64,000 bases of DNA, taken from positions 434,001 to 498,000 of the forward strand of contig NZ_CP041241.1 of the NCBI RefSeq assembly GCF_013488225.1, written 5' to 3'. This DNA is from Sinorhizobium mexicanum. GTDB taxonomy: Bacteria; Pseudomonadota; Alphaproteobacteria; Rhizobiales; Rhizobiaceae. A program made the translations under genes and the position numbers. The notes below the pieces were generated by a model. It saw nothing but the letters and a program-made list of their open reading frames with translations. It was not told the origin of the DNA and searched no databases. Below are positions 5,619 through 54,842 of this stretch, in pieces (the stretch's first letter is position 1; the number at the start of each line of letters is the position of its first letter).

Positions 5619-5643
5619 GGAACCTGCCTCGCCCAGGCCGGTT
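5619..5643 (+). promoter_or_regulatory. EcfG-type stress promoter
   Basis: GGAAC at 5619-5623 and GGTT at 5640-5643, separated by 16 bases. This fits the EcfG/RpoE2 consensus GGAAC-N16/17-NGTT. It lies 23 bases before the preferred start of the pyruvyl transferase gene and would put the alternative ATG at 5646 almost on the -10 box. Confidence 0.65.
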
Positions 5644-5666
5644 AGATGAACCGAGAGGTAGAAGCC

Positions 5667-6731
5667 ATGGCAAAGCTCGGTGTCCTGACGTTTCACCGCT
5701 GCATCAACTACGGGTCGTTCTGGCAAGCACTCTGCCTCGTGCAGGGGCTTCGTTCGCTCGGCGCCCAACCCGTGGTTCTCGACCATCGTTCCGACCGTAT
5801 CAGCCGCGCCGAATGGCGCTGTGCGCTCCAGCCGCTGCTGCCCGCGAGGACCGCGCGACCGGACATCTCGCTTTACGCCTCGAAGATCAGGAAATTCCTG
5901 AACGCATTCGCATCGTTTCCGCTCAGTGCAGCCTTTGCGCTTGAGGAGCCACTCGCCCCGGAAGATTGCGATCTGGTCGTCGTGGGCAGCGACGAAGTCT
6001 GGAACCTTCGCCATCCCTGGTACGGCGGAGTTCCGCTCTTCTATGGCGAAGGCCTTTCCGCAAAGAGGATCGTTTCCTATGCGGCCACGTTCGGAAGTCA
6101 TCCCGCCGCGAACGGGCTTGAGAGCTATTGGGCGGACAAGCTGCAAAAATTTCACGCCATTTCCGTGCGCGACGAGAATTCAAGGATAATTATCGAAAGG
6201 GCGCTTGGACGTGAGGCCGTACTCGTCCTTGATCCCTGCCTGCAATTCCCGGAGACGATCCCGACTCGTCGAAGCGTTGCCGATCGCCGCCCCTACGTTG
6301 CCGTTTACGGCCACTCATTCCCATTGTGGTTTCAACACGAGGTTTGCCGCTCGGCAGAATCGCGCTCGCTCCCGCTGGTCAGCATAGGTTATCGCAACGA
6401 TTGGGCGGACGAGCAGTGGCTCGACGGCGGGCCCTACGAATTCGCGGGCTTCATCGCCGGTGCCGAGGCTGTCGCCACGAACTTCTTTCACGGCTGCGTA
6501 TTCGCGCTCCTCAACGCCAAACCGTTTGTCTGCGCCCTTTCTGACTACCGTTCCAATAAGATTTGCGACCTCACGCGCCTGGTCGGTGCGCAACGGCACG
6601 TGATGTCGCAGAAGACGCCTCCGGCGGACTATGAAACTATTCTTGGCGAAGCGCCGGACCAGGCCATCGCCGATCGACTAGCCGACCTTCGCCGCCAATC
6701 GCGGAACTATCTGACCGATGCCCTCAACTGA
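5667..6731 (+). CDS. polysaccharide pyruvyl transferase family protein
   Basis: A 354-aa protein of the polysaccharide pyruvyl transferase superfamily (CsaB/ExoV-like), which moves pyruvyl groups from PEP to sugars of exopolysaccharides or secondary wall polymers. Features seen include the N-terminal LTFHRCINYGSFWQA, GSDEVWNL and SYAATFGS in the middle, AISVRDENS, and near the C-terminus ATNFFHGCVFAL, which fits the conserved S/T-x-R/F-x-H-G active-site region. GAGAGG precedes ATG 5667; the ATG at 5646 is less likely. The next gene overlaps its end. In many genomes this family is paired with an F420-hydrogenase-beta-like protein, as here. Confidence 0.8.
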   Translation: MAKLGVLTFHRCINYGSFWQALCLVQGLRSLGAQPVVLDHRSDRISRAEWRCALQPLLPARTARPDISLYASKIRKFLNAFASFPLSAAFALEEPLAPEDCDLVVVGSDEVWNLRHPWYGGVPLFYGEGLSAKRIVSYAATFGSHPAANGLESYWADKLQKFHAISVRDENSRIIIERALGREAVLVLDPCLQFPETIPTRRSVADRRPYVAVYGHSFPLWFQHEVCRSAESRSLPLVSIGYRNDWADEQWLDGGPYEFAGFIAGAEAVATNFFHGCVFALLNAKPFVCALSDYRSNKICDLTRLVGAQRHVMSQKTPPADYETILGEAPDQAIADRLADLRRQSRNYLTDALN

Positions 6732-8151
6732 ACGCCAGATGCCACCCGATGGCACCTCGCTCGCGCCGAAGCAGATGGACAGATCGGGCCTATGCATCGG
6801 CTGCGGCGCCTGCACTGCGCGATCTGACGCAAGGGCCACCGGCATGCGGCTTGATCATTACGGGCAATTCAAGCCGCCGGCATCCCACCACCCGCGCGGA
6901 TTCGCCCAACTGTGCCCGTTCTCGCCCGATGCCAAGAACGAAGACGATATCGCTCGTGAGCGGTTTGCATCGGCAAAACATTGCGATCCGCACATTGGGC
7001 GCTTCGAAGCCGCCTATGTGGGATATGTCCGCGAAAACACCTTTCGGACCGACGGCAGTTCCGGTGGCATGGCCAGTTGGACAGCGGTGGAGCTTCTGGA
7101 GACGAACCTGGTCGACGGCGTCGCTCATGTGGTTCCTCGAAGCGAGGACTCCGAGTTATTGTTCCACTACCGCCTGTCGCGAACCGCAGAGGACGTACGC
7201 GCAGGGGCGAAGTCGCGCTACTATCCGGTCGAGCTGTCCGGGGTCATTGATGAAATGAGCCGCTGTCCCGGTCGCTATGCAGTCGTCGGAATCCCCTGTT
7301 TCATCAAGGCCCTGCATCTCTTATGTCTGCAGGATCCGGTGCTGCGCGAGCGTGTCGCCTTTACGCTCGGCCTCTTCTGCGGACACATGAAGAGCACTCG
7401 TTTCGTTGAGAGCATCGCCTGGCAGCTGGGGGAAAAAGTCGAAGCTGTCGCGGATGTCGATTTCAGGGTCAAAGATGTCACCCGCCCTGCGAACTGGTAC
7501 ACGGCCCGGCTGCTGCTGAAGGACGGCAGCACGCGGAGCAAGGACTGGTGGCATCTAGCCGACGGGGACTGGGGAGCGGGATTCTTCCAGAACTCGGCAT
7601 GCAACTTTTGCGACGACGTCGTTGCCGAAACCGCGGACATTTCTTTTGGCGATGCCTGGGCAGAACCTTATGCCAGCGACGGTCGCGGAACGAATGTCGT
7701 CGTCGTTCGCTCTCCTCTGCTCCGACGCCTCGTCGACCACGCCCGTAATGAAGGGCGGCTGGAATTGCAGGAGGTCGACAGTGCATTCGTGGTCGGAACA
7801 CAGGCTGCCGGCTTCAGGCAGAGACGCGAAGGCCTCGCCTTTCGGCTGAGCCGGCCGCGCCGGGGCGTCACGCCGAAAAAGCGCGTCGCCCCACAAAGAG
7901 CCGGTCTTGTTCCCCGGCGGATGACGATCTACTGGTTGCGCAGTCTGGTCAGCGCGCAAAGCCACCGCGTGTTCCGACTTGCCAGAATATTGCATTGGCC
8001 GGCGATCTATACTCGGTGGGCTTCGACCATGCTCGCCTTTTACCAGGGAGTGACCTATTCGCGCGGCTGGATCGGAAAACTTGTCTCCCGCATCTGCCCG
8101 GAAATGGCCGACTCGGGCAGGACATCGAGCGACGATGAACCGGGCGCATAA
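6718..8151 (+). CDS. coenzyme F420 hydrogenase/dehydrogenase beta-subunit family protein
   Basis: A 477-aa iron-sulfur protein of the FrhB/FdhB-like family. The N-terminus carries a ferredoxin-like motif CIGCGAC (residues 22-28) with a further cysteine in QLCPFSP. The middle has the family signature RTDGSSGGMASW, a KSRYYPVEL segment, GIPCFIKAL and FCGHMKS, and later a cysteine pair ACNFC followed by DISFGDAW. Such proteins occur beside polysaccharide pyruvyl transferases in polysaccharide clusters, where their redox partner is unknown; cofactor F420 use is not implied. The start overlaps the upstream gene by 14 bases, indicating translational coupling. Its 3' end overlaps a convergent gene by 97 bases. 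Confidence 0.75.
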   Translation: MPSTERQMPPDGTSLAPKQMDRSGLCIGCGACTARSDARATGMRLDHYGQFKPPASHHPRGFAQLCPFSPDAKNEDDIARERFASAKHCDPHIGRFEAAYVGYVRENTFRTDGSSGGMASWTAVELLETNLVDGVAHVVPRSEDSELLFHYRLSRTAEDVRAGAKSRYYPVELSGVIDEMSRCPGRYAVVGIPCFIKALHLLCLQDPVLRERVAFTLGLFCGHMKSTRFVESIAWQLGEKVEAVADVDFRVKDVTRPANWYTARLLLKDGSTRSKDWWHLADGDWGAGFFQNSACNFCDDVVAETADISFGDAWAEPYASDGRGTNVVVVRSPLLRRLVDHARNEGRLELQEVDSAFVVGTQAAGFRQRREGLAFRLSRPRRGVTPKKRVAPQRAGLVPRRMTIYWLRSLVSAQSHRVFRLARILHWPAIYTRWASTMLAFYQGVTYSRGWIGKLVSRICPEMADSGRTSSDDEPGA

Positions 8152-9026
8152 CGCCCCGTCATTTCCGCGCAGAAATCGGCGAATTCTTCCGGCATGACCG
8201 GCGCGCTTGTGTGGTGCGGCGCCATACCCCGGTGCTCGGGGGTAAAGCAGAACGTGATTGTGACGTCGAATTCTTCAAGGGCGGCCATTTGGCGATCGAA
8301 CCAGGCCAGCGCGTTAGGTCGGAAGCGGTCGGCCCAGGACAGGCCGGTGCGTAGGTGCGTGACGCCGAGGCGCTTCATCCATGAAACGGCGTCGTCAAGC
8401 CGGGGATCCTCGAAATGGAACCATTGCACGAGTCCGATCTCAGGCGTGTGCCGGGCAAACTCTTCCAGTGCCAGTTTGGGCATACCGTCTTCACGCAGGA
8501 GACCCATGTGGAAATGCCGGTAATAGGACGAGCCCTCGGCCTCTTTGTGTCGCGTGGTCGCACCCCAAGCGCGCGGCAGGTCGTAGAGGCTGTACCACTG
8601 GATCCGCTCGACCTTGCCTTTGAGCAACTCGGCGGTCTTCTGCAGCCCCCAAAGCTGGACTTCCTCGGCGCCGAAAGTCGAAACACCAACCTCACTGATC
8701 CATATCGGCAAATCGGTCACGGCGCGTATTTCCGCGAGCCTCAGTGGCCATTCCTCGATTTGCCAAAGATTCCAGTCAAGCGGAAAGCCATGAACCGCCA
8801 CGGCATCGACGTGGTCAAGGACGCCATAGGATTTCATCAGGGCCATGAAATCTGGATCGATCGGCGAAATTCCCCCTAGCACCCGCCTGAGGCCGGGATT
8901 GATGTCTCGGATCGCATTGGCAGCCAGCTTCGCCATATGTGCAAAACGACTCCAGTCCGGGTCGATCTCCGGATCCCAATGCGACTTGTTGTTCGGCTCG
9001 TTCCAGATCATGGCCGCTTCGATCAT
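8055..9026 (-). CDS. glycoside hydrolase-like TIM barrel in permuted order
   Basis: A 323-aa protein with clan GH-A catalytic motifs in an unusual order. The acid/base motif WNEPNN (Glu10) lies at the very N-terminus, the nucleophile-type motif ISEVG (Glu112) follows, then a strand RIQWYSLYDLP. Only after about residue 195 come the strands that open a normal barrel: GLVQWFHFED, GVTHLRTGLSW and VTITFCFTPEHRG. No signal peptide is seen. The ATG is preceded by GGAGGG at suitable distance, so the short N-terminus appears genuine. It is the last gene of the ino1-phosphatase operon. Likely substrate is a glycan, perhaps xyloside-containing, but this is inference. The 3' end overlaps the convergent gene. 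Confidence 0.7.
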   Translation of the reverse strand: MIEAAMIWNEPNNKSHWDPEIDPDWSRFAHMAKLAANAIRDINPGLRRVLGGISPIDPDFMALMKSYGVLDHVDAVAVHGFPLDWNLWQIEEWPLRLAEIRAVTDLPIWISEVGVSTFGAEEVQLWGLQKTAELLKGKVERIQWYSLYDLPRAWGATTRHKEAEGSSYYRHFHMGLLREDGMPKLALEEFARHTPEIGLVQWFHFEDPRLDDAVSWMKRLGVTHLRTGLSWADRFRPNALAWFDRQMAALEEFDVTITFCFTPEHRGMAPHHTSAPVMPEEFADFCAEMTGRYAPGSSSLDVLPESAISGQMRETSFPIQPRE

Positions 9027-9054
9027 CAGCGCCCTCCGTGTTTCTTCCGTTGCA

Positions 9055-9663
9055 TCATCGTGCCGCGTCCTGGGTTTCGTTCAATTGCAGGACCTTCGCC
9101 CCCCAAACACCTGCCACCACGGCGGAGATGGAGGCGGGGGCGATATCGAAGCGCGCCCAGGCGTCAGTCGATAGGCCGAGCACTTGGCAGATCATCGCCT
9201 TAATGACGTCGGCGTGGCTCACGAATACGATCTTTTCGCCGCCGCTCTGCGTGCACAACGTTTCGACAAGCGCCACGATCCGCTGTTGGACGTCCAGCAT
9301 CGTCTCACCGCCAGGGGCGCGTACCAGGCTCCGTGTGCAATTCCATTGGCGCCAAAGCGGGTCCGAGTTGAGGACTTCGAAAGTCTTGCCTGACCAACTG
9401 CCGAAGTCGACTTCGTCCAGCGCATCGACCGTTTTAACCTCGCCGAGCCCCGAGACGGCAGCGATGGCCGCTGCCGTTTCCTGCGTGCGTTTGCGGGGGC
9501 TGGCATAGATCGCGCCGATGTCCTCACGCGCGAGACGCGCTGCCAGGCGCGTGGCCTGTTCGCGTCCGGCGCCGCCGAGCGGAACGTCGGCCGATCGACC
9601 TGCGAGAAAGCTGCCGACGTTGTCGTGCGCAGCGTGCCGCACCAGCAGAAAAGTGGTCGTCAC
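9055..9663 (-). CDS. histidine phosphatase family protein
   Basis: A 202-aa phosphoglycerate-mutase-like phosphatase. The catalytic RH motif is in [11 protein letters not shown] at the N-terminus, [13 protein letters not shown] and [14 protein letters not shown] follow, and the second catalytic histidine is in [14 protein letters not shown] at 9663 is taken as the start because it overlaps the stop of ino1 (GTGA) and places the RH motif at the expected position; longer extensions would run through ino1. Being coupled to inositol-3-phosphate synthase, it may dephosphorylate the inositol phosphate product, although the family is broad and this is inference. Confidence 0.8.
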
Positions 9664-10763
9664 TCTGCCGCCCCCAGGAGTGCGTCGGTATCGCCTTCGA
9701 TGAATTCCTCCAGGCGCCTGCGTGCCTCGGCATCGGTGAATTGCTGTGGCGGGGACTTCATGAAGTAGCTCGACGGGGCGATCAATGGACCGCTGATGTC
9801 GCGGTCCATGGCTAGTTTCGCACACCGGATCGCATCGATTACCACGCCAGCCGAATTGGGTGAGTCCCACACCTCGAGCTTCAGTTCGACATTGAGGGGG
9901 ACGTTGCCGAATGTCGTGCCTTCGACGCGGATGTATGCGAACTTGCGGTCGGCAAGCCAAGGCACGTGGTCACTGGGACCTACATGAATGTCGTTGGCGG
10001 CCAATGGAATGTCCATCTGGCTGACAACCGATTGCGTTTTCGAAATCTTCTTCGATACCAACCGTTCACGCTCCAGCATGTTGAGAAAGTCGGTGTTGCC
10101 GCCAAAATTCAGCTGATAGGTCCGGTCGATGCGCACCCCCCGGTCGCGAAAGAGATTGGCGAGCAGCCGATGCACGATGGTTGCCCCGACCTGGCTCTTT
10201 ATGTCATCACCAATCAGCGGAAGCCCGCGTTCGGCGAATTTGCGCTGCCACGAACTGTCGGAGGCGATGAAAGCGGGAATGCAGTTGACAAAACCGCAAC
10301 CGGCGGCCAGCGCCTGCTCCGCATACCAGCGTGTCGCAACTTCTGAGCCAACGGGGAGATAGGAGACCAGGACGTCCGTTTCCGTCTGCCGCAAAACCTC
10401 CGCGACATCAGCCTCAGGCTTGTCGGATTCCTCTATCTCATCGCGCAGGTACCGTCCGATGCCGTCGAGTGTTCTGCCGCGTTGGACAACGACGCCGCTG
10501 GCGGCGACATCGGCGAAGCGGAAAGTGTTGTTAGGAGGCGCGTAGATTGCGTCTGCCACGTCATGTCCAACCTTCGCCGCGGCGACATCAAAAGCTGCGG
10601 AAACTTCGATATCGTGGACGTGGTAGCCACCGAGGTTGACATGCATCAGTCCGGGAACGGGGTCATCTTCCCTCGCACCCTTATAAAACGTCAGCCCCTG
10701 AACAAGCGAGGATGCGCAGTTCCCGATCCCCACCAGCCCGACCCGAATTGATTTCGATCGCAT
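9660..10763 (-). CDS. ino1: inositol-3-phosphate synthase
   Basis: A 367-aa NAD-dependent enzyme that converts glucose 6-phosphate to 1D-myo-inositol 3-phosphate. The N-terminal dinucleotide-binding motif [15 protein letters not shown] is clear. Further family markers are [49 protein letters not shown] and the C-terminal [18 protein letters not shown]. The length matches the shorter actinobacterial/bacterial form rather than the ~500-aa eukaryotic form. It is first in an operon with a phosphatase and a glycoside hydrolase. An EcfG-type promoter lies 37 bases upstream. An inositol-containing glycan, or inositol as osmolyte, are both possible roles. Confidence 0.9.
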
Positions 10764-10799
10764 CAGTCTGCAACTCCTGCGCAGCTACAATGCTGGCCA

Positions 10800-10824
10800 A
10801 ACCACCGCGTGGCCGAATGGTTCC
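10800..10824 (-). promoter_or_regulatory. EcfG-type stress promoter
   Basis: On the minus strand GGAAC (10820-10824) is followed after 16 bases by GGTT (10800-10803). It matches the GGAAC-N16/17-NGTT consensus and ends 36 bases before the ino1 start codon. Confidence 0.7.
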
Positions 10825-10899
10825 TTCCACGATTTCTTGCGCGCCGGATCGATTCGGCCCGCGGCGCGTTGAAGGCAAACGTGAAGCAATGGGTGGAGC

Positions 10900-12651
10900 A
10901 TGCTTGTATTCGGTGCCGTCACGCGTTTGGAGCGCGCCGACGCTTTGTGCGCGGCTATCGCCGCCCAGTTGCGCGGACTCGAACATCAGCCGCCGGGGAT
11001 CGAGCGCCATGCCGCGCTCGTCGGGATCCTGCTCAAGGTCGGAGAACTCGTGCAGGGACTGTTGGACATCGAGTTCGAAAAAGGGGCGGTCGATGACGTC
11101 TCTGCGTGGCGCCACATCGGCAGCCTCCTTCTCCTCGACCTGGCACGGCTCGTCGTCCAATCGTGGCGTCAGGAACTGGAGGGGCCGCTTGCCGTGCCGC
11201 CGCGTGTCACGGCTCTGCTGGTTCATCTGCGGGTGCCGTGTTCGCTTTGCGTCAGCGAGGCGGAAGGCTACAGTTTTTACGGTCTCTACCCGGAATGCTA
11301 TGCCGAAGCCGCGATGCGCTCCGGACTTGCGGCAAACACGACCGTAATCGGCCTGCGAAGCATCGGAACCAGCCTCTCCGCAATGGTCGCCGCCTCCATC
11401 GGTGCCGCCGAACCCGTGACGCTTCGGCCAGCGGGCCCACCTTTTCAAAAGCGCATTGCGGTCGCGCCACGGCTTTCGCACCGGCTGCTACGCGATCCCA
11501 CGGCGCGTTTTGCCATTGTCGACGAGGGGCCGGGTCTTTCCGGCAGTTCGTTCGGAAGCGTGGCGGACTGGCTTGAGGACCATGGCGTCGGCACCAGGCA
11601 CATTCACTTCTTCCCCGGACACAAGGGAGGACTTGGGCCGGAATCGAGCAGCTGCCACCGCAAGCGCTGGGCTGCAAGCCCTCATCATGTGCTCGACGCA
11701 GATGATCTCCTCTTGGAAGGCTGCCACGGTCTCGCCTCCTGGGTCACGGAGCTCATCGGCCCGCTCGAAAGGCCGCTTGAAGACATTTCGGCGGGCGTCT
11801 GGCGGAAGGCAATTCGTGAGGATCACCGTGCCTGGCCGGTGGTAGACCGCCGATTCGAACGCAGAAAATTCCTCGCCCATACGACCGATGGTACGTGGCT
11901 CGTCAAATTTGCCGGCCTCGGCGACGTGGGCCAGCGCAAGCTGCTCAAGGCGCGTCTCCTGGCGGAGGCAGGCTTCACGCCTCCCGTCGCAGGATTGTGC
12001 CACGGCTTCCTCGTCGAGAGGTGGATAGCGGGCCGACCGGTCGCGCCGAGCGAGTTTCGTCAGACGAAATTCGTTGAGCATCTCGGCCGGTACCTGGCCT
12101 TTCGGGCACGCAGCCTGCCGCGACCGGCGACATCTGGAGCATCGCTTTCGAAGCTGTGCGAGATGGCGACGGTGAATACCAAGGAGGCTCTGGGCACGGC
12201 GGCGGCATTGCGGCTGAAGGCCCTGCTTGGCAATGCTGAGCGCTATGAGCGCTTCCTAAAGCCAGTCGATACCGACAATCGGCTGCACCGCTGGGAATGG
12301 CTTGCGGGAGGCGACCGGGGGTTTCTGAAGACCGATGCGCTCGACCACAGTGCCGCCCATGACTTGGTTGGCCGCCAGGACATCGCCTGGGATCTGGCAG
12401 GGGCAGGCGTCGAGCTCGGGCTTTCGGTGGAGCAATTGGCCGATTTGCGCGCGGTCGTATCCGAGGGATGTTCTAGAGACTTGAATCCGAACCTCCAGGC
12501 AGTCCTCGAGCTCTGTTATCTGGCGTTTCAGCTTGGCCTCTGGATTTCGGCAAAGCCGACAGGCTCCGCGGACGAAGTTCCTCGGCTGGACGCGACCGCG
12601 TCACGTTACGCGAAACTTCTGGTGCGTCGTCTCGAAGCCGACGGCATGTGA
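10900..12651 (+). CDS. phosphoribosyltransferase-like / phosphotransferase-like fusion protein
   Basis: A 583-aa protein that I cannot assign to a characterised family. Residues 206-217 (IVDEGPGLSGSS) look like the PRPP-binding loop of type I phosphoribosyltransferases, preceded by a glycine-rich loop GLRSIGTSLSAM near 151-162. The C-terminal half resembles aminoglycoside-phosphotransferase-like kinases: TWLVKFAG suggests the ATP-binding lysine, and FLKTDALDHSAAHDLVG followed by QDIAWDLAGA resembles the catalytic/metal region. It is divergent from ino1 and convergent with a Gfo/Idh/MocA oxidoreductase. The GGAG at 10894-10897 is closer to the ATG than usual. Sugar or inositol phosphate chemistry is a guess from context. 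Confidence 0.55.
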   Translation: MLVFGAVTRLERADALCAAIAAQLRGLEHQPPGIERHAALVGILLKVGELVQGLLDIEFEKGAVDDVSAWRHIGSLLLLDLARLVVQSWRQELEGPLAVPPRVTALLVHLRVPCSLCVSEAEGYSFYGLYPECYAEAAMRSGLAANTTVIGLRSIGTSLSAMVAASIGAAEPVTLRPAGPPFQKRIAVAPRLSHRLLRDPTARFAIVDEGPGLSGSSFGSVADWLEDHGVGTRHIHFFPGHKGGLGPESSSCHRKRWAASPHHVLDADDLLLEGCHGLASWVTELIGPLERPLEDISAGVWRKAIREDHRAWPVVDRRFERRKFLAHTTDGTWLVKFAGLGDVGQRKLLKARLLAEAGFTPPVAGLCHGFLVERWIAGRPVAPSEFRQTKFVEHLGRYLAFRARSLPRPATSGASLSKLCEMATVNTKEALGTAAALRLKALLGNAERYERFLKPVDTDNRLHRWEWLAGGDRGFLKTDALDHSAAHDLVGRQDIAWDLAGAGVELGLSVEQLADLRAVVSEGCSRDLNPNLQAVLELCYLAFQLGLWISAKPTGSADEVPRLDATASRYAKLLVRRLEADGM

Positions 12652-12672
12652 TCCGCGCGAGGGGAGTGCCGC

Positions 12673-13695
12673 CTATCGCCCGTAAATTCTGTCGAGGACA
12701 TCCGCCACCGCGACAAGACGGTCATTGTGGGGATCGTAGCGCTCACCTGCGGCCAGGCGCTTCGCCCATGCCGCTGCCGCGCGTCCGCCCCAGGCGTCAG
12801 GAGGAAGCGTCAGCACGTGACGTTGGGTGCCGCGATACCGTTCGGCCGAAAAATCGAGATAGGATCCATTCACGTTTCTAAAGCTGGCGCCGCCTCCGGT
12901 GCCGTGAAAGTCGGCGGCAATCACCGCATCTTGTCCAGCCTGCAAATGCCACGAGCATGCGATGCGGGCAACAACGCCGCTCGCCAGTTCGAGGGTCGCA
13001 ACGGCGTAGTCTTCCACCTCGTCGTCGCGGTGGACAGGAGCGCCCTTGCACAGCAACCGGCTTTCGATCCCGACGACGTCCGGGAAGTCCAGAACCCAAA
13101 GGAGGAGATCGACGAGGTGCACCCCGAGGTCGATGACGCAACCGCCACCTGAGAGCGCCTTGTCGTAGAACCATGGCTTGCTTGGCCCGTAGGCGTTGTG
13201 AAAGGTGAGATCCACCGCGAAAACGGTGCCGAGTTCGCCCGCGACAATCAAATCGCGGATCTGTCGCATTCCGTCCGTGTAACGGTAGGAAAGGTCCACG
13301 CCCAATAGCCTGTTGACGCGGCGGGCCGCATCGACCACGGCTGCGGCCTCATCGCGCGTGCGGCCGAGGGGCTTCTGGCAGAAAACTGCCACGCCTTGCT
13401 CGAGCGCCACGATCGACTGGGCAGCGTGAAGCGCGCTTGGCGAAGCGATTACGAGGCCGTCCAGCTGCTGGTCGAGCAGGGTCTCGAAGGAACTTACGAC
13501 TGAGGCCTCGGGCGTCAACTCTCGAGCCGCAGCGGCCATTTCCGGTGAGGGGTCGAAGATCGCGGCGGTTTCGACGGCTTCGGTGTCGACGATCGCTTTC
13601 ATGCGATGGAGGCCGATCCTTCCAACTCCGAGGAAGCCGATACGAGGCCGGCTGAGGACATTTCGGGTCATTGCAAGCGGCGTCGCATCACTCAT
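12673..13695 (-). CDS. Gfo/Idh/MocA family oxidoreductase
   Basis: A 340-aa NAD(P)-dependent dehydrogenase. The Rossmann motif GFLGVGRIGLHRM lies near the N-terminus, and CQKPLGRTRDEA corresponds to the conserved EKP region with the catalytic lysine. The C-terminal domain contains GGGCVIDLGVHLVDLLLW, which carries the conserved D-x3-H pair. Family members oxidise inositols, sugars or nucleotide sugars. Its start overlaps the stop of the upstream alcohol dehydrogenase gene by eight bases, so the two are co-translated. Presence of inositol-3-phosphate synthase nearby makes an inositol or inositol-derived substrate plausible but unproven. Confidence 0.8.
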   Translation of the reverse strand: MSDATPLAMTRNVLSRPRIGFLGVGRIGLHRMKAIVDTEAVETAAIFDPSPEMAAAARELTPEASVVSSFETLLDQQLDGLVIASPSALHAAQSIVALEQGVAVFCQKPLGRTRDEAAAVVDAARRVNRLLGVDLSYRYTDGMRQIRDLIVAGELGTVFAVDLTFHNAYGPSKPWFYDKALSGGGCVIDLGVHLVDLLLWVLDFPDVVGIESRLLCKGAPVHRDDEVEDYAVATLELASGVVARIACSWHLQAGQDAVIAADFHGTGGGASFRNVNGSYLDFSAERYRGTQRHVLTLPPDAWGGRAAAAWAKRLAAGERYDPHNDRLVAVADVLDRIYGR

Positions 13696-14680
13696 CGTAG
13701 ATCACCAGCGCCTTGATGAAACCTTCCGGCCGGTCGCGGGCCATGTCCAGCGCCGCCCCGAGCTGTTCGAGCGGAAACCTGTGCGTATAGAGTGGTGAGG
13801 GCGACATCCGCCCGGCGGCCGTGGCCGCGATCGCCTCATGGATGCCGCGCATGTATACGGCGGGATCCCGCTCGTGTGCATTGATCACATCGAGGCCGCG
13901 CCAGTTCCAGAGCTGCATGTTGACCTGCCGCGGGCCGTCCTGATGATAGCCTGCGATAACCAGTCGCCCCCGCTCCTTTGTCAGTTCGCCTGCAAGATCG
14001 AGCGGCCATTGCTTGCCGACGGCTTCGATAACGCAGTCACAGAAGTTGGCCGAGGTCAGTTCCTTCACCTCCTCGATAATCCGCCAATGATCGTCCATGG
14101 CAACCACATGGCTTGCGCCGACGCGTTCTGCCGATGCAAGCGAGGAAGGCCTGCGCGAGATGGCGATGACTTGCGCGCCTGCAGCGCTCGCGAGTTCGGT
14201 CAGAAGGATTCCGAGAAAACCGATACCCACGATCGCCACGGTCTCCCCCGGCTTGATCGCGCTGCGACGGAAGATATTGAAGGCGCAGCCGAGCGGTTCG
14301 CCAGGAAAGGGTTGACTCGCAAGCGTTGCGGGTAGTGCGGCGAGGGCTGTCTGGTCCGCAATGTCGTGTGTTGCATAGGCGTGGTAGGAGAGTGCCGCGA
14401 CGCGATCACCCGCAGCGAAGCCATGCACATCCTCGCCGACTGCGTCGATTATTCCCCAGCCTTCATGGCCGAGGGCCCCTGGTTCGGCCGGGAACTCCAT
14501 CCAATCCGGCCCCGCCCAGGGGACGAGGTTGGAGGCACAGACACCGCAGCCTTCAAGTCTGATGCGAACTTGGCCGCGGCCTGGATGTGGCAGTGGCAGG
14601 GTTTCGATATGCACTTCACCTGGTCCGGTGAGGATTGCGGCGGACATCGTATCCGCCGGCTGGGCTGCTGTTATGGTCAT
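13688..14680 (-). CDS. medium-chain alcohol dehydrogenase-like protein
   Basis: A 330-aa member of the MDR superfamily. The catalytic-zinc ligands are suggested by GCGVCASNL and LGHEGWG, and the nucleotide-binding motif is VAIVGIGFLGILL. The four-cysteine structural zinc loop common in classical enzymes is not present, the corresponding region reading YHAYATHDIAD. A strong GGGAGG precedes the ATG. It heads a two-gene operon with a Gfo/Idh/MocA oxidoreductase and is divergent from the large glycosyltransferase operon, with a 320-base intergenic region between. Together the pair would carry out two redox steps on a sugar or cyclitol; the substrate is unknown. Confidence 0.75.
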   Translation of the reverse strand: MTITAAQPADTMSAAILTGPGEVHIETLPLPHPGRGQVRIRLEGCGVCASNLVPWAGPDWMEFPAEPGALGHEGWGIIDAVGEDVHGFAAGDRVAALSYHAYATHDIADQTALAALPATLASQPFPGEPLGCAFNIFRRSAIKPGETVAIVGIGFLGILLTELASAAGAQVIAISRRPSSLASAERVGASHVVAMDDHWRIIEEVKELTSANFCDCVIEAVGKQWPLDLAGELTKERGRLVIAGYHQDGPRQVNMQLWNWRGLDVINAHERDPAVYMRGIHEAIAATAAGRMSPSPLYTHRFPLEQLGAALDMARDRPEGFIKALVIYDE

Positions 14681-14842
14681 GTGTTCCCTCCCGCCGTCGA
14701 GACCAATCCGGGCAGCCGGCCGTCAAGTCTGAGCGGCAAGAGCCGGTCCAACTCGTCGAGGCGAACTGCGACCGGCGCCCGGCTGCCTTCGCGCACTTAA
14801 CTTGATGTTGCAACTTTTGTTCCTGACGCCCCCATCTCACGC

Positions 14843-14867
14843 GGAACACTCGCGCGAAAGCGAGGTT
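14843..14867 (+). promoter_or_regulatory. EcfG-type stress promoter of the glycan operon
   Basis: GGAAC at 14843-14847 and GGTT at 14864-14867 with a 16-base spacer. It lies in the divergent intergenic region, 136 bases before the first gene of the eight-gene operon at 15004-23529. The leader contains a purine-rich AAGAAGAACAAGAAG tract. Confidence 0.6.
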
Positions 14868-15003
14868 TGTACCTTCGGGCCGGCGATGCCGCTCGGGGCA
14901 ATCAAAGAAGAACAAGAAGAAGAAGTCATGGATGAAGGAACATTTGCTACCGAGGCTTGTTGGAGCTTGTCACTATCTCCCATGGAATGTGGTCAGGTAT
15001 GTC

Positions 15004-16110
15004 ATGACAAAGGTTCTTGTTACCGGCGGATGCGGCTTCATAGGCCGGCATGTGGTCGAGGAACTCCTCTCAAGGAACTACAGCGTGCGCGTGTTGGACG
15101 TGCTCAATGAGCAGGTTCATGCGGATGCACAGGTCACGTTGCCGTCGGACGTGGACGTACGACGCGCGGACATTCGAGATGCGGACGCGGTAAAAGGCGC
15201 CCTGACGGACGTCGACTGCGTTGTCCATCTTGCAGCTGAGGTGGGGGTCGGTCAGTCGATGTATGAAATCGCCCGCTATGTGGGCGTCAACGACTTCGGG
15301 ACGGCCGTCCTGCTCGAGGCGATCATTGGAATGCCGATCCGGCGCATCGTCGTCGCATCGTCGATGAGTGTGTATGGCGAAGGGCTCTACGAGACCATAA
15401 CGGGCGAGCGTTGTTCCCATGTCAGACGGTTCCCTGCCGCTATCAGGGCAGGTTCGTGGAACCCGACCGGACCTGACGGGGAGCGTCTCAGGCCGGTCCC
15501 GACGGATGAGCAGAAGCCAGTCGATCTCGCGTCCATCTACGCGCTCACGAAGTTTGCGCAGGAACGCCAAGTGCTGATTTTTGGAGAAGCTTATGGCGTG
15601 GAGACCGTGGCCCTTCGTCTGTTCAACGTGTATGGCGCCGGTCAGGCGCTTTCCAACCCGTATACGGGCGTGCTTGCCAACTTTGCCTCGCGGCTTGCCA
15701 ACGGACAAGCGCCGATGGTGTTCGAAGATGGCAGACAAAGGCGGGATTTCGTTCATATCCGCGACGTGGCGCGGGCCTTTCGGTTGGCGCTCGAACAGGC
15801 GCCGGCTGCCGGCCACGTCATCAATATCGGCAGCGGCCGTGCCTATACCATCGCCGACGTCGCCTTGCTGCTCGCGGATGCGATGGGATTACCCGAGCTT
15901 GAGCCGGAGATCATGAACAAGGCTCGTTCGGGCGATATCCGCAATTGTTTCGCCGACATTACCGCAGCACGGGACCTGCTCGGCTTCGAACCCGCACATC
16001 AACTTGAAAATTCGCTGACCGATTTCGCGCAATGGGTCGGCAGCGTCGGCGCGATCGACCGGGGACCCGAGATGAAGCGACACCTGGAAGCGCGGGGATT
16101 GGTGCTATGA
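15004..16110 (+). CDS. NAD-dependent epimerase/dehydratase (SDR)
   Basis: A 368-aa extended short-chain dehydrogenase. The protein opens with VLVTGGCGFIGRHV, the NAD-binding TGGxGFIG motif; HLAAEVGVGQSM, a catalytic serine in SSMSVYGEG and YALTK (Tyr-x3-Lys) follow. Such enzymes epimerise or dehydrate nucleotide sugars, and the closest recognisable group is UDP-glucose 4-epimerase-like. ATG 15004 was chosen because the NAD motif then starts at the usual position; an in-frame ATG at 14932 would add 24 residues of unlikely sequence. The stop overlaps the next start (ATGA). It is the first gene of the glycan operon. Confidence 0.8.
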   Translation: MTKVLVTGGCGFIGRHVVEELLSRNYSVRVLDVLNEQVHADAQVTLPSDVDVRRADIRDADAVKGALTDVDCVVHLAAEVGVGQSMYEIARYVGVNDFGTAVLLEAIIGMPIRRIVVASSMSVYGEGLYETITGERCSHVRRFPAAIRAGSWNPTGPDGERLRPVPTDEQKPVDLASIYALTKFAQERQVLIFGEAYGVETVALRLFNVYGAGQALSNPYTGVLANFASRLANGQAPMVFEDGRQRRDFVHIRDVARAFRLALEQAPAAGHVINIGSGRAYTIADVALLLADAMGLPELEPEIMNKARSGDIRNCFADITAARDLLGFEPAHQLENSLTDFAQWVGSVGAIDRGPEMKRHLEARGLVL

Positions 16111-17228
16111 GCGCCGGTTCTCCGGATCGGCGTGCGCGCCTGGCGGCACCCAGCCTTTCCAGGAAGGCGGCAGCAATCGTCATTGTAGGAGGCAGCGGTT
16201 TCGTCGGCAGCAATCTCGCCGACAGTTTCTTGCGGGACGGCGAGGAGGTGATTGTTCTTGACAATCTCAGCCGGGCTGGCGTCGAGCGAAATCTTGAATG
16301 GTTGGTGGCTACTCATCGCGGCGCTGTCCACCCCGTGCTCGCCGATATTCGCGAGCTCACTGCGATAGAGCCGGTCTTCAAGGATGCCAAGGCGGTCTTT
16401 CATCTCGCGGCGCAAACGGCCGTGACGACCAGCCTGCAGCAGCCGATCGACGATTTCGAAACGAATGCGCGCGGCACGCTCAATGTGCTTGAAGCGGCGC
16501 GCAAGGCCGGACGCCGGGCCCCCGTCATATTCGCCAGCAGCAACAAGGTCTATGGCGCGCTGGCGCAAATGCGGGTGCAGGAGTTCGGGGGTCGCCACTT
16601 GCCGGCCGATGATCTGGTACGCAGCCATGGCGTCAGCGAGGCGCAGCCGCTTGACTTTTGCACCCCCTATGGCTGCTCGAAAGGTGTCGCCGACCAATAC
16701 GTGCTGGACTACAGGAGGTCGTTCGGGCTTCCGACGGCCGTGCTCCGAATGAGCTGCATCTATGGTCCAAGGCAGTTCGGCACGGAAGATCAGGGATGGG
16801 TCGCGCATTTCCTCATTCGCGCGCTCGCGGGTGAGCCGATATCGATCTATGGCGACGGAAAGCAGGTCCGCGACATCCTCCATGTCAGAGATGCGGTCGC
16901 CGCCTACCGAGCACTTCTCAAATCGATCGATCGTCTCAATGGGCGACCCTTCAATCTCGGCGGCGGGCCTGAGAACGCCGTCAGCATCTCCCAGGTCCTC
17001 GGCGAGATTGAACTCCTGGTGGGCCGTCCACTCTCGACAGAAGAGCACGACTGGCGGGCTGGCGACCAACTGTTTTTCGTTGCCGATACGCGGGCGCTTG
17101 CCGATGCGGTCGGCTGGAAGGCTCGCACGTCCTGGCGCGCGGGACTGCGCGAACTGCACGGCTGGCTTCTGGAAGATTGGGACGTGGTTCACGGAGCCCG
17201 CCATCAAACAAAGAGGATCACCGCATGA
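16107..17228 (+). CDS. NAD-dependent epimerase (SDR, CDP-paratose epimerase-like)
   Basis: A 373-aa extended SDR. After about 20 linker residues comes VIVGGSGFVGSNLADSFL, then HLAAQTAVTTSL, SSNKVYGAL and the catalytic TPYGCSKGVADQYVLDY. The segment SCIYGPRQFGTEDQGWVAHF is typical of CDP-paratose/tyvelose 2-epimerase-like enzymes, as is GDGKQVRDILHV. A specific nucleotide-sugar substrate cannot be decided. The start is taken at ATG 16107, overlapping the previous stop by four bases, and the stop overlaps the next gene in the same way, showing a tightly coupled operon. Confidence 0.8.
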   Translation: MSAGSPDRRARLAAPSLSRKAAAIVIVGGSGFVGSNLADSFLRDGEEVIVLDNLSRAGVERNLEWLVATHRGAVHPVLADIRELTAIEPVFKDAKAVFHLAAQTAVTTSLQQPIDDFETNARGTLNVLEAARKAGRRAPVIFASSNKVYGALAQMRVQEFGGRHLPADDLVRSHGVSEAQPLDFCTPYGCSKGVADQYVLDYRRSFGLPTAVLRMSCIYGPRQFGTEDQGWVAHFLIRALAGEPISIYGDGKQVRDILHVRDAVAAYRALLKSIDRLNGRPFNLGGGPENAVSISQVLGEIELLVGRPLSTEEHDWRAGDQLFFVADTRALADAVGWKARTSWRAGLRELHGWLLEDWDVVHGARHQTKRITA

Positions 17229-18376
17229 GCAATCGCGCTGGTTCCGCCCTTCGCGTTCTCGGTGATGACGGCACCCGAGGTCGGCTGCCGCGGCGGATCA
17301 TCATGAGCGTCGATGCGGTGGGCGGGGTATGGCGCTACGCCATGGACCTCGCCGATGCCATTCGAGCTGCTGGCGTGGAAACACTTTTCGTCGGATTCGG
17401 TCCAGAGCCTTCCTCGCATCAGCGGCGTGAGGCTGCGCGCATCGGCACGCTCGAATGGTTCGCCGCGCCGCTCGACTGGACGGCCGGCGATGAAAGCGAG
17501 TTCGACGTGGTGGCGGACCTGCTGACCGAACTTTCGCTCAGGCATTCGGTCGACCTGCTGCATCTGAACCTGCCGTCTCAGGCGGCCGGTCTTCCGGCGC
17601 AAACGCCTGTCGTCGCTGCCTCGCATTCGTGTGTCACCACCTGGTTCGATACCGTGCGTGCTTCTGGCTTGCCGCGGGAGTGGCTTTGGCAAAAGCGGCT
17701 GAACCGGCAGGGTTTCGACCGCGCCGACATAGTTCTGGCCCCGAGTTCCAGTCATGCTGCGGGCCTCGTGCGCTGCTATGGCCGGATCGACGGTCTCAAA
17801 GTCGTCCATAATGGCAGCCGAAACTCGTATCCGGTCATGTCCAAGGAGAACTTCGTTTTTGCGGCGGGCCGGTGGTGGGACGAGGGCAAGAACGGCGCGG
17901 TGCTGGACCAGGCGGCCGCGCATATCAACTGGCCGGTGCTGATGGCCGGGGCATGCGATGGCCCAAACCGTGAGCGTTTGGCGATCCAGCACGCCGATCA
18001 TCGAGGGGAACTCAGTCACGATCGGGCCTTGGCGCTGATATCGAAAGCCGCGATCGTCGTCTCACCGTCGATCTACGAACCGTTCGGACTTGTTGCACTG
18101 GAGGCGGCGTGCGCCGGCGCAGCCTTGGTGCTTGCCGACATCGACACCTATCGTGAGCTTTGGGACGGTGCGGCCCTTTTTGCCGATCCCGGCGATCCCG
18201 TCGCCTTCGCGAATGTCATCAATGCTTTGGCGAAGGATGCGGAATTCAGGGCTGAGTTGGGCCACCAGGCACGCTTGCGGTCGCGCGAATTTTCCATCGA
18301 AGCCCAACGCGACGCGGTGCTTGCCGCCTACCGGCAAGCCATGCACCGGTCTCCTCGATTGACGGCTGCGGAGTGA
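17225..18376 (+). CDS. glycosyltransferase family 4 protein
   Basis: A 383-aa GT-B fold glycosyltransferase. The N-terminal domain has VDAVGGVWRYAMDLADAI, typical of GT4 acceptor-side glycine loops, and the C-terminal domain has VSPSIYEPFGLVALEAA, the E-x7-E nucleotide-sugar-binding motif. No membrane segment is present, so the enzyme is cytoplasmic or peripheral. GAGGATC lies before the ATG, and the start overlaps the previous stop (ATGA). It probably adds one sugar during assembly of the glycan encoded by the operon; donor and acceptor are unknown. Confidence 0.85.
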   Translation: MSNRAGSALRVLGDDGTRGRLPRRIIMSVDAVGGVWRYAMDLADAIRAAGVETLFVGFGPEPSSHQRREAARIGTLEWFAAPLDWTAGDESEFDVVADLLTELSLRHSVDLLHLNLPSQAAGLPAQTPVVAASHSCVTTWFDTVRASGLPREWLWQKRLNRQGFDRADIVLAPSSSHAAGLVRCYGRIDGLKVVHNGSRNSYPVMSKENFVFAAGRWWDEGKNGAVLDQAAAHINWPVLMAGACDGPNRERLAIQHADHRGELSHDRALALISKAAIVVSPSIYEPFGLVALEAACAGAALVLADIDTYRELWDGAALFADPGDPVAFANVINALAKDAEFRAELGHQARLRSREFSIEAQRDAVLAAYRQAMHRSPRLTAAE

Positions 18377-19509
18377 TGCGATTTCTCTTCTACACCCATT
18401 CACTTATTTCCGATTGGAACCACGGCAATGCCCACTTTCTGCGTGGTGTCATGCGGGAACTCCTGCAACGGGGTCATGAGGCCGTGGCGCTCGAACCGCG
18501 CGATTCCTGGAGCCGCCTCAATCTGATCGCGGAGCAGGGGGTCGGGCCGATTGTAGCGTTCCGCAAGCACTTTCCCGATCTGCACGTCGAGATCTATGGA
18601 GCCGATTTCGACCACGAGGCCGCGGTCAGCGAGACCGACCTGGTCGTCGTGCATGAATGGTCCGATCCCGACCTTGTCGCCCGGCTCGGTCGCATCCGTC
18701 ACGCAGGTGGCAACTTCACGCTCGCCTTCCACGATACACATCATCGCGCCGTCACCGCCAAGGGTGCTGTCGCCCGGCTCGACCTTTCCGGATACGACTT
18801 CGTCCTGGCCTTCGGAGAAACGCTCCGCGAACGGTATCTCAGCGCGGGCTGGGGTAGAGACGTCTTCACTTGGCATGAGGCTGCAGACACGTCGCTGTTC
18901 CGTCCAATTCCGCACGCCGACAAAAAAGGCGATCTCGTCTGGATCGGCAACTGGGGCGATGATGAGCGCAGTGCCGAGATCTCGTCCTTCCTCATCGAGC
19001 CAGCGCGACAACTGAAGCTTCTGGCAACCGTGCGGGGTGTGAGATATCCCGACGCTGCGCTCAAGGCACTGCGTGCGGCACGGATAGACTATGGGGGCTG
19101 GCTCGCGAACGCCGCCGTTCCGCGGGCTTTTGCCGAGCATCGGGCCACAGTGCATATTCCTCGGCGGCCTTATGTCGAATCCCTCCCGGGCATACCGACC
19201 ATCCGGGTCTTCGAAGCGCTTGCCTGCGGCATTCCGCTGATCTCGGCGCCATGGAACGACGCGGAAGGTCTTTTCCGCCCCGGCACCGATTTCCTTTTTG
19301 CCGGTACCGGCAAGGAAATGACGCGCCTGCTGCGTCAAGTGCTCTCGGAGCCAGCCGCCGCACAGGAACTGGCTGCCTCCGGCTTGGCAACTATCCGGGC
19401 ACGCCATACCTGCAGTCATCGCGTCGACGAACTACTCGACATCGTTGCTTCGTACCGCCCGAGCAAGGTCAAGCGCGATCGCAGCGCTTCAACGGAGGTC
19501 GCGATATGA
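18376..19509 (+). CDS. CgeB-like glycosyltransferase (first of three)
   Basis: A 377-aa protein with the layout of CgeB-type GT-B glycosyltransferases: N-terminal FLFYTHSLISDWNHGNAHFL, a central WIGNWGDDERS segment where CgeB-like proteins have a conserved glycine/asparagine loop, and C-terminal IPTIRVFEALACGIPLISAPW, which is the donor-binding region. ATG 18376 overlaps the previous stop by one base (TGATG); a GTG three bases earlier is the alternative. Its two downstream neighbours share the same architecture, so the operon contains a family of three related enzymes. Confidence 0.75.
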   Translation: MRFLFYTHSLISDWNHGNAHFLRGVMRELLQRGHEAVALEPRDSWSRLNLIAEQGVGPIVAFRKHFPDLHVEIYGADFDHEAAVSETDLVVVHEWSDPDLVARLGRIRHAGGNFTLAFHDTHHRAVTAKGAVARLDLSGYDFVLAFGETLRERYLSAGWGRDVFTWHEAADTSLFRPIPHADKKGDLVWIGNWGDDERSAEISSFLIEPARQLKLLATVRGVRYPDAALKALRAARIDYGGWLANAAVPRAFAEHRATVHIPRRPYVESLPGIPTIRVFEALACGIPLISAPWNDAEGLFRPGTDFLFAGTGKEMTRLLRQVLSEPAAAQELAASGLATIRARHTCSHRVDELLDIVASYRPSKVKRDRSASTEVAI

Positions 19510-21709: not shown

Positions 21710-21730
21710 CAACCGAAGGGAGAACGGCCC

Positions 21731-22765: not shown

Positions 22766-22767
22766 TC

Positions 22768-24275: not shown

Positions 24276-24300
24276 AACCGGCTCGCACTTCGTTTGTTCC
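24276..24300 (-). promoter_or_regulatory. EcfG-type stress promoter
   Basis: Minus strand GGAAC (24296-24300), 16-base spacer, GGTT (24276-24279), 26 bases before the start of the tail-anchored protein gene. Confidence 0.7.
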
Positions 24301-24349: not shown

Positions 24350-24374
24350 GGAACATCCGCGGCGCCGAAGAGTT
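24350..24374 (+). promoter_or_regulatory. EcfG-type stress promoter
   Basis: GGAAC at 24350-24354, 16-base spacer, AGTT at 24371-24374, 26 bases before the GTG start of the P450 gene. With the site at 24276-24300 it forms a divergent promoter pair. Confidence 0.6.
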
Positions 24375-25889: not shown

Positions 25890-25914
25890 AACCGATGTGA
25901 GGACCGAAGGTTCC
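25890..25914 (-). promoter_or_regulatory. EcfG-type stress promoter
   Basis: Minus strand GGAAC (25910-25914), 16-base spacer, GGTT (25890-25893). The -10 box ends 23 bases before the start of the 56-aa membrane protein gene. Confidence 0.7.
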
Positions 25915-26517: not shown

Positions 26518-26542
26518 GGAACTTTATCCTCATTTCGCGGTT
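26518..26542 (+). promoter_or_regulatory. EcfG-type stress promoter
   Basis: GGAAC at 26518-26522, 16-base spacer, GGTT at 26539-26542, 40 bases before the 48-aa basic protein gene. Confidence 0.65.
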
Positions 26543-37079: not shown

Positions 37080-37104
37080 AACCGTGCTGAGCGCGAAGAG
37101 TTCC
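37080..37104 (-). promoter_or_regulatory. EcfG-type stress promoter
   Basis: Minus strand GGAAC (37100-37104), 16-base spacer, GGTT (37080-37083), 55 bases before the exported hypothetical protein gene. Confidence 0.7.
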
Positions 37105-38899: not shown

Positions 38900-38924
38900 G
38901 GAACAGTTAGGGCGGTGAGATGTT
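38900..38924 (+). promoter_or_regulatory. EcfG-type stress promoter
   Basis: GGAAC at 38900-38904, 16-base spacer, TGTT at 38921-38924; 20 bases before the ATG of the 79-aa protein gene, leaving a very short leader. Confidence 0.65.
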
Positions 38925-39958: not shown

Positions 39959-39983
39959 GGAACTTTGGACGCAATCAGCGGTT
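39959..39983 (+). promoter_or_regulatory. EcfG-type stress promoter of the second oxidase operon
   Basis: GGAAC at 39959-39963, 16-base spacer, GGTT at 39980-39983; 39 bases before the GTG start of subunit II. The first oxidase operon has no comparable site. Confidence 0.65.
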
Positions 39984-40022
39984 CCTCCGGATTGGTTTAT
40001 GCGCTGAAAGACGGACATCGCC

Positions 40023-43540: not shown

Positions 43541-43542
43541 CC

Positions 43543-46270: not shown

Positions 46271-46295
46271 AACCGCCGTTGCTTTTGATTGTTCC
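46271..46295 (-). promoter_or_regulatory. EcfG-type stress promoter
   Basis: Minus strand GGAAC (46291-46295), 16-base spacer, GGTT (46271-46274), 31 bases before the DUF2267 gene. Confidence 0.7.
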
Positions 46296-46316: not shown

Positions 46317-46342
46317 GGAACATTGTCGGGCGGCAAAGGGTT
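46317..46342. promoter_or_regulatory. possible bidirectional EcfG-like site
   Basis: GGAAC at 46317-46321 and the inverted GTTCC at the right edge are arranged so that both strands read GGAAC-N17-NGTT (GGTT on plus, TGTT on minus). On the plus strand it precedes the weak small frame at 46379. Confidence 0.4.
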
Positions 46343-46378
46343 CCGAGACTCCGGCTCACGGAGCGAGGAAACTGCCAT

Positions 46379-46674: not shown

Positions 46675-46699
46675 GGAACCTTCCGGTGTTGCGTCAGTT
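46675..46699 (+). promoter_or_regulatory. EcfG-type stress promoter
   Basis: GGAAC at 46675-46679, 16-base spacer, AGTT at 46696-46699; 24 bases before the 187-aa protein gene. Confidence 0.65.
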
Positions 46700-49565: not shown

Positions 49566-49590
49566 AACCGGCAGAGGCTGAAGATGTTCC
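49566..49590 (-). promoter_or_regulatory. EcfG-type stress promoter
   Basis: Minus strand GGAAC (49586-49590), 16-base spacer, GGTT (49566-49569), 33 bases before the SDR gene. Confidence 0.7.
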
Positions 49591-52225: not shown

Positions 52226-52249
52226 AATTGCCGTTCCCACACCTCCACC

Positions 52250-52277
52250 GGAACGAAATGCACCTCCCGCGTGTTCC
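52250..52277. promoter_or_regulatory. bidirectional EcfG-type promoter
   Basis: GGAAC at 52250-52254 and inverted GTTCC at 52273-52277. Plus strand reads GGAAC-N17-TGTT; minus strand reads GGAAC-N17-CGTT. Each -10 box lies about 25-30 bases from a start codon (52304 on plus, 52225 on minus). Confidence 0.6.
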
Positions 52278-53381: not shown

Positions 53382-53414
53382 TGGCGCTTCGCACCGCGTC
53401 AGGAGGCAAATATC

Positions 53415-54674: not shown

Positions 54675-54703
54675 TCGTTTGGTGCCTCCAATATCTCTTG
54701 GCT

Positions 54704-54728
54704 AACGACCGATCAGAACGATTGTTCC
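54704..54728 (-). promoter_or_regulatory. EcfG-type stress promoter, near-perfect
   Basis: Minus strand GGAAC (54724-54728), 16-base spacer, CGTT (54704-54707), 29 bases before the 86-aa protein gene. Confidence 0.75.
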
Positions 54729-54816
54729 CGGATCAAGGTGCAGTCAGAGCAGCGATACGGGGCTCCGTCGCCGACCGTCGCCCTCTCCAGGCAGGTGGTC
54801 ATCCGGACAGGCCTCA

Positions 54817-54842
54817 GGAACCAAATTCAGCCATAGCGAGTT
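54817..54842 (+). promoter_or_regulatory. EcfG-type stress promoter
   Basis: GGAAC at 54817-54821, 17-base spacer, AGTT at 54839-54842; 36 bases before the CsbD-family gene. Confidence 0.6.

Follow-up and report, generated by a model that had tools for sequence, protein, structure and literature searches.

The stretch of DNA examined here, 64,000 nucleotides (nt) of Sinorhizobium mexicanum (G000:C4:434001-498000, that is, positions 434,001 to 498,000 of contig NZ_CP041241.1, here C4; referred to below as the window), very probably forms the central part of a general-stress-response island on a chromid-like, pSymB-like replicon, in which about twenty transcription units are each predicted to have their own promoter of the ECF15/EcfG type (ECF, extracytoplasmic function). 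The genome comprises 7.14 Mb in four contigs, of which C4 accounts for 1,933,675 bases. Both the promoter and the sigma system are those of the alphaproteobacterial PhyR-NepR-EcfG (ECF15) response, as represented by RpoE2 of Sinorhizobium meliloti and EcfG1 of Rhizobium etli. Papers are cited by their PubMed Central numbers, and what is said of them holds for the parts of their text that were available; in those of PMC3892343 the R. etli EcfG1 promoter reads GGAAC-N16-CGTT.

The motif GGAAC-N16/17-NGTT, which combines the GGAAC -35 and the GTT -10 elements of EcfG promoters at their 16-17 spacing, was searched on both strands, and an exact pattern scan of the window returned 31 matches at 26 distinct places. 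One hundred dinucleotide shuffles of the same sequence gave a mean of 2.96 matches and a maximum of 10, and motifs with wrong spacers (14 of them) gave 4.0 per two spacers, which agrees with the roughly four that the first-pass annotation of this DNA had expected by chance. In a scan of spacers from 10 to 24, spacer 16 had 20 matches and spacer 17 had 11, while each of the other 13 lengths had 0-4; since only these two are enriched, the spacing itself carries a signal. Five palindromic places (39959, 46317, 52250, 54817 and 58744) count on both strands; the last is absent from the earlier list and has no aligned relative. All 17 sites of that list are exact matches at the positions given, and so are its two-way sites at 46317 and 52250, while the site at 37787 is imperfect, as had been claimed, with CGTC as its -10. 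A search of the window against Rfam found nothing above the gathering score.

The position of the matches is telling as well. Gene starts came from a simple dicodon caller run over the whole replicon, so that individual starts can be wrong; within the window only, four gene boundaries were corrected and two genes added. Before this correction, intergenic matches numbered 24 of the 31, and for 21 a correctly oriented start followed within 250 nt. After it, 27 are intergenic and 23 stand 21-145 nt before a correctly oriented start, against 0.43 expected within 150 nt from the 14 wrong spacers; placement upstream of genes in the right orientation is what an EcfG promoter calls for. Twelve wrong spacers on the whole of C4 yielded 586 matches, of which 83 were intergenic and just 31 within 250 nt upstream of a correctly oriented start. 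Equal density inside genes, which had been named in advance as the finding that would overturn the idea, is not what we see: coding sequence makes up about 83% of the window, yet just four of the 31 matches fall within genes. The 23 promoter-positioned matches make up 20 distinct sites by count from the site list and serve about twenty transcription units, as had been proposed. An exception in the earlier list is 37365(+), an exact motif with its nearest called start 628 nt away and no aligned counterpart in relatives, which is not promoter-positioned.

Conservation of these letters can be read from relatives. Six of the 32 other genomes of the genus have long homology to the oxidase region of the window (83-87% identity, at least 4 kb), and stretches of 48-60 kb around these homologues were compared. 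Over every aligned match, genic ones and both strands included, identity amounts to 98.6% for the -35 and -10 letters (1049 of 1064 cells), 84.4% for the spacer letters (1941 of 2300) and 80.0% for the flanking letters (6029 of 7534), so the two elements are conserved beyond their surroundings, as those of EcfG promoters should be. For the 23 intergenic matches that could be aligned, the motif is retained in 114 of 116 alignments; for the four genic matches the figure is 8 of 17 (5767 in 5/6, 24494 in 0/4, 25358 in 2/3 and 30441 in 1/4). When genic, unaligned and second-strand palindrome matches are removed from the 31, 19 sites remain for analysis by column: GGAAC and GTT are conserved at 0.99-1.00, the four bases after GGAAC at 0.92-0.98 and the two after GTT at 0.98 and 0.94, with the remaining single columns reaching up to 0.95 and most of them at 0.63-0.89. 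Both 14799(-) and 14937(+), sites additional to the earlier list, are kept in all six relatives.

The same data speak against two other explanations. That these are chance matches in GC-rich DNA has next to no probability left: the motif does have just eight fixed letters, and four matches do fall in genes, but the spacer control, the position and the conservation refute it. Very improbable too, if less extremely so, is that some sites are read by ECF sigma factors of another group whose -35 is similar, such as ECF26 with GGAATA. According to the partial text of PMC6180224 the motif of RpoE6 is similar to that of ECF15, and the genome yields ten matches to EcfG at E <=0.001, EcfG itself included; GGAAC, however, and not GGAATA, is what all but a few of the aligned cells keep.

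Set against the replicon, the window stands out but does not stand alone. There are 151 matches on C4, at a rate of 4.1 per 64 kb outside the window, and no sliding 64-kb stretch of its 1.93 Mb exceeds the window's 31 (overlapping neighbours tie). The window has 43 of 1124 eligible starts, yet 23 of the 68 promoter-positioned sites (hypergeometric p 8e-19); in 3000 random placements of 68 promoters on eligible C4 starts, no 64 kb received more than 12. Neighbouring clusters lie at C4 410-413 kb (5 matches, 4 intergenic) and C4 520-541 kb (18, all intergenic). Altogether the 132 kb at C4 409.5-541.5 kb, with the window in the middle, contain 54 matches and 40 of the 68 promoter-positioned sites. 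The label of a general-stress-response island given in the first-pass annotation is therefore supported, while the extent given to it was too small, as the clusters reach from 410 to 541 kb. Typical targets of the general stress response are CsbD, DUF4142, BON and CBS proteins and the genes of glycogen and trehalose metabolism; among the products of the neighbouring clusters are a GlgA-like protein of the starch-synthase type, GlgX, a member of the alpha-amylase family, and BON and CBS proteins. The GC content of the window is 60.5%, that of C4 61.6%. A tRNA search of the window found none, and no integrase was seen among the window proteins run against Pfam, a subset of the open reading frames (ORFs). 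A DDE transposase ORF (PF01609) at C4:538319-538816, which shares the third cluster with stress-promoter units, is a possible route of rearrangement.

The sigma system needed to read such promoters is present. On C1, a contig of 4.3 Mb that was sampled as three 20-kb stretches plus short loci from searches, the locus at 3312 kb encodes NepR (PF18557 above cut-off), a 184-amino-acid (aa) ECF sigma factor that exceeds the NF009169 cut-off, and a divergent PhyR; a second pair of NepR (PF18557, again above cut-off) and PhyR is at 869 kb, and the two PhyR proteins each score above the cut-off of the PhyR family, NF006623. EcfG, NepR and PhyR, the components that define the general stress response, are thus encoded together. 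A second EcfG-type factor, 41% identical and with sigma regions 2 and 4, is encoded outside the window at C4:532466-532933(-) (98270-98933 in window coordinates, ORF included), inside the third promoter cluster. Tail-to-tail with it, about 22 nt apart, is a small ORF, C4:532270-532428(+), with a weak NepR match (E 0.005, below cut-off). This paralogue occurs at >=84% identity in 32 of the 33 genomes of the genus, its own included, the exception being a genome that is 70% complete.

The sites and the genes behind them are given below in window coordinates, with the distance from site to start and the number of aligned relatives that keep the motif; protein families are from Pfam unless another source is named.

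5619..5643, + strand: EcfG-type promoter, 24 nt before a polysaccharide pyruvyl transferase gene (PF04230, ATG 5667); kept in 6/6
5667..23529, no strand assigned: glycan-type gene block with genes for pyruvyl transferase, FrhB-like protein, histidine phosphatase, inositol-phosphate synthase, Gfo/Idh oxidoreductase, epimerases, glycosyltransferases and methyltransferase; aligns as a single 18-20 kb block in 6/6
10800..10824, - strand: EcfG-type promoter, 37 nt before the inositol-phosphate synthase gene 9660-10763(-) (PF01658; TIGR03450 match below its cut-off); 6/6
14799..14823, - strand: EcfG-type promoter, 119 nt before the zinc dehydrogenase gene 13688-14680(-)
14843..14867, + strand: EcfG-type promoter, the farther of two before an NAD-dependent epimerase gene (ATG 15004), 137 nt; 6/6
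14937..14961, + strand: EcfG-type promoter, the closer of the two before this epimerase gene, 43 nt
24276..24300, - strand: EcfG-type promoter, 27 nt before a small gene without family match, 23914-24249(-); 6/6
24350..24374, + strand: EcfG-type promoter, 27 nt before the P450 gene 24401-25651, CYP152-like (PF00067; NF053744 match below its cut-off); 6/6
25890..25914, - strand: EcfG-type promoter, 24 nt before the 56-aa gene 25696-25866(-); 6/6
26518..26542, + strand: EcfG-type promoter, 41 nt before a 48-aa gene at 26583; 4/4
33880..33904, + strand: EcfG-type promoter, 28 nt before the DUF4142 gene 33932-34459 (PF13628); 4/4
34702..35685, + strand: HWE-family sensor kinase (PF07536 and DUF4118), a candidate stress-input kinase; NCBIfam LOV-kinase and PhyK matches far below cut-offs
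37080..37104, - strand: EcfG-type promoter, 56 nt before the gene 36623-37024(-); 3/3
38900..38924, + strand: EcfG-type promoter, 21 nt before a small gene at 38945; no aligned relative
39959..39985, two-way: EcfG-type site, on the + strand 40 nt before caa3-type oxidase genes 40023-45709 (COX2 with cytochrome c domain, COX1, Caa3_CtaG; the ctaD product is COX1 only); 6/6 on both strands
46271..46295, - strand: EcfG-type promoter, 32 nt before the DUF2267 gene 45799-46239(-) (PF10025); 6/6
46317..46344, two-way: EcfG-type site between the DUF2267 gene (-) and a 50-aa ORF, 46379-46531(+), at 37 and 80 nt; + motif 6/6, - motif 5/6
46675..46699, + strand: EcfG-type promoter, 25 nt before the gene 46724-47287; 3/4
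49566..49590, - strand: EcfG-type promoter, 34 nt before short-chain dehydrogenase and alcohol dehydrogenase genes 47377-49532(-); 6/6
52250..52277, two-way: EcfG-type site between the LPG-synthase-TM gene 51284-52222(-) and the endonuclease/exonuclease/phosphatase gene 52304-53068(+), 29 and 30 nt to the starts; 3/3 on both strands
54704..54728, - strand: EcfG-type promoter, 30 nt before genes 53797-54674(-) including an isochorismatase-family gene (PF00857); 3/3
54817..54844, two-way: EcfG-type site, on the + strand 37 nt before the CsbD gene 54879-55085 (PF05532); 4/4 on both strands

Two cytochrome oxidase gene sets and several small ORFs without family match are thus found in the window. 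The caa3-type genes behind 39959 are the second set; the first (27150-32448, COX families) follows the 48-aa gene at 26583 and a DUF1328 gene at 26790, and its co-transcription from the site at 26518 is only putative. A YceI - cytochrome b561 - YceI trio at 61422-63307 has no EcfG-type site nearby. Two overlapping ORFs on opposite strands carry conflicting family evidence, 55560-56537(+) matching ETF-alpha (1e-34) and 55212-56690(-) matching DJ-1/PfpI (6e-13). Directly upstream of 37365 and of the imperfect 37787 site are near-palindromic tandem boxes, GGACTTTAGYCC / GGGCAAAGGTCC, at 37314-37347 and 37746-37778, 21-22 nt from start to start, with a looser one near 38446; they resemble DosR-like boxes. 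The exact tandem-box pattern occurs in 2 of the 33 genus genomes, this one included, and one more such pair is on C4 at 1298675.

At the two-way sites the -35 of one strand overlaps the -10 of the other (GGAAC-N17/18-GTTCC), and activity in both directions is putative. Bidirectional, pseudo-symmetric bacterial promoters, in which one stretch is likewise able to bind polymerase both ways, are described in the available parts of PMC12825309 and PMC10268837. We considered whether the two-way promoters form a selected class of their own, and this was not supported. All nine palindromic places on C4 are intergenic, as would be expected of any promoters; the two letters after GTT are conserved to a similar degree in one-way matches (137 of 144 cells) and two-way matches (75 of 76); and the genome has 21 such palindromes against 18 of the reversed control, with many family genomes (not counted) below the control.

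What is new in the comparison is that the array looks modular. In each of the six relatives the glycan block is turned around with respect to the second oxidase operon, and shifts of up to 48 kb are seen for other blocks. The 48-60 kb stretches of the relatives carry 25-35 sites each, against 2.6-4.0 with wrong spacers, and their DNA without a match on C4, which may yet be present in another part of the S. mexicanum genome, has 19 sites in 78 kb where 3.3 are expected. One insert, between 25.9 and 26.0 kb of our window, recurs in four relatives. A link between rearrangement breakpoints and promoters found no support: 5 of 15 merged ends fall within 100 nt of a site, where random intergenic points would give 5.1 (p 0.62) and gene boundaries 2.6 (p 0.09).

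Dense arrays that share genes with this one appear in other genera of the Rhizobiaceae as well, where a site is also present before the same caa3-type oxidase gene as at 39959. Loci with a relative of the 840-aa ctaD product number more than 582; in the best 80 of them, three being the Sinorhizobium relatives, there are 287 sites against 71 with wrong spacers, and 32 loci have a coding-strand site within 1.7 kb before ctaD, where 3.4 are expected. In these 32 the distance is, by eye, 1.0-1.3 kb in 27, about 1.5 kb in four of Aureimonas type, and 0.4 kb in one; the Stutzerimonas and Pseudomonas loci among the 80 have no site before ctaD. Seven loci of 16-22 kb hold 10-16 sites each: those of Rhizobium terrae, Ensifer adhaerens Lc04, two Pseudorhizobium, Xaviernesmea oryzae B4P, R. 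populisoli and R. lemnae. The first ORFs behind the sites, 232 in 77 loci, include 104 with a best hit on C4 and 128 without a C4 homologue. After 25 hits to oxidase genes are set aside, 42 of the remaining 79 fall inside the 132-kb region, which has 7.9% of the genes (p 1e-25); of the 37 elsewhere, 5 go to one gene, C4:408622-410076, just beyond the chosen edge of the region. Tentatively, then, and with rather more doubt than confidence, we suggest that the Rhizobiaceae may share a modular pool of EcfG-driven units that repeatedly assemble into dense arrays, in this genome on a secondary replicon and with a caa3-type oxidase under general-stress control as the anchor, so that the regulon would be a movable neighbourhood and not a set of scattered genes.

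These observations also bear on a reading compatible with ours, in which the EcfG promoters are real and their clustering is a by-product of easy gene gain and loss on accessory replicons, proximity itself bringing no benefit. We consider this a serious possibility, with a probability a little short of even. The shuffled order, the patchy presence and the lineage-specific DNA with sites would all fit it, but 40 of 68 promoter-positioned sites within 132 kb of a 1934-kb replicon, and 23 per 64 kb where random placement gave at most 12, speak against it.

It should be pointed out that several results weigh against the stress-island reading. The bare motif is scarcely above its reversed control genome-wide, at 454 versus 379, and below it in many of 121 family genomes (not counted); a genome-wide excess was therefore dropped as evidence for being too weak, and support comes from where the sites lie, how dense they are locally and how well they are conserved. 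Long oxidase-region homology is limited to the six relatives, other genomes such as G025 having shorter parts, and the six represent only about four lineages, since G031/G032 and G017/G028 are near-identical pairs. Because of such near-identical genomes and the shared insert, the 19 sites in DNA without a C4 match amount to about 14 independent ones. No site precedes ctaD in 48 of the 80 oxidase loci, and the 77 loci of the ORF comparison partly share ancestry. Finally, C is the canonical base before GTT in EcfG promoters, although it was not taken as a defining feature, and in the window it is not the commonest: there are 13 G and 4 C at this position, other intergenic sites of C4 having 15 and 25 (p 0.01, post hoc). 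The bias may reflect weaker promoters or a preference of the second EcfG.

The latter option leads to a more specific proposal, namely that the array is read mainly by the paralogue on C4 (RpoE5/EcfG2 type, C4:532 kb) as a partly separate stress circuit. The paralogue and its neighbouring NepR-like ORF belong to the promoter cluster that follows on this replicon; the G of the window's GGTT is unchanged in 57 of 61 aligned cells; and EcfG1 and EcfG2 of R. etli each favour their own promoter, according to the partial text of PMC3892343. We nevertheless find the proposal unlikely. Upon overexpression in S. meliloti, RpoE5 had one putative target and RpoE2 had 320 (PMC6180224, in part), and the paralogue is nearly universal in the genus, whereas the oxidase part of the island is found in 7 of 33 genomes.

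The closest known counterparts of the second EcfG share some but not all of its setting. RpoE5 (SMb21484) of S. meliloti has an unannotated RsiA-like (NepR-like) ORF on the opposite strand in the available text of PMC6180224, much like the paralogue and ORF on C4; this comparison concerns the ORF arrangement alone, while the factor described here sits inside a cluster of 18 EcfG-type sites. R. etli EcfG2 is a plasmid-borne accessory EcfG, hence likewise a second EcfG on a secondary replicon, and the parts of PMC3892343 at hand describe no promoter array for it. More than half of the promoter-positioned sites of the replicon are here in one 132-kb region, and such a promoter island is not described in the available parts of the S. 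meliloti regulon papers (PMC6180224, PMC3616915). Among the matches listed in the literature on EcfG systems, multiple EcfG copies and bidirectional promoters, neither an EcfG-promoter island nor a caa3-type oxidase under EcfG is named; both are weak negatives drawn from partial texts, with subscription literature thinly covered. The EcfG-related papers compared included PMC8877191, and PMC7713065 contains the terms EcfG, cytochrome c oxidase and general stress response.

The partner switch is well known and its genes are encoded here; on this basis, stress would lead phosphorylated PhyR to sequester NepR, and the EcfG thus freed would guide RNA polymerase to the island promoters jointly. The products induced together would be small stress proteins, the caa3-type oxidase, glycan enzymes, and membrane-lipid and redox enzymes. 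What the DNA shows directly is the excess of the motif, its placement, the conserved -35 and -10, the sigma-system genes, the rearrangement and the recurrence in other genera; that EcfG transcribes these units, that they are induced jointly and that clustering may bring some benefit is what we infer. The island appears to behave as a modular pool, its blocks shifting and inverting together with their promoters, and lineage-specific DNA has such promoters too.

A region of 132 kb with 40 promoter-positioned sites, rearranged among relatives while its promoters stay fixed, offers a system in which to ask whether clustered stress genes benefit bacteria. The island bears on how stress regulons grow, and it raises the question of why a terminal oxidase and a glycan block would join the stress response of soil bacteria.

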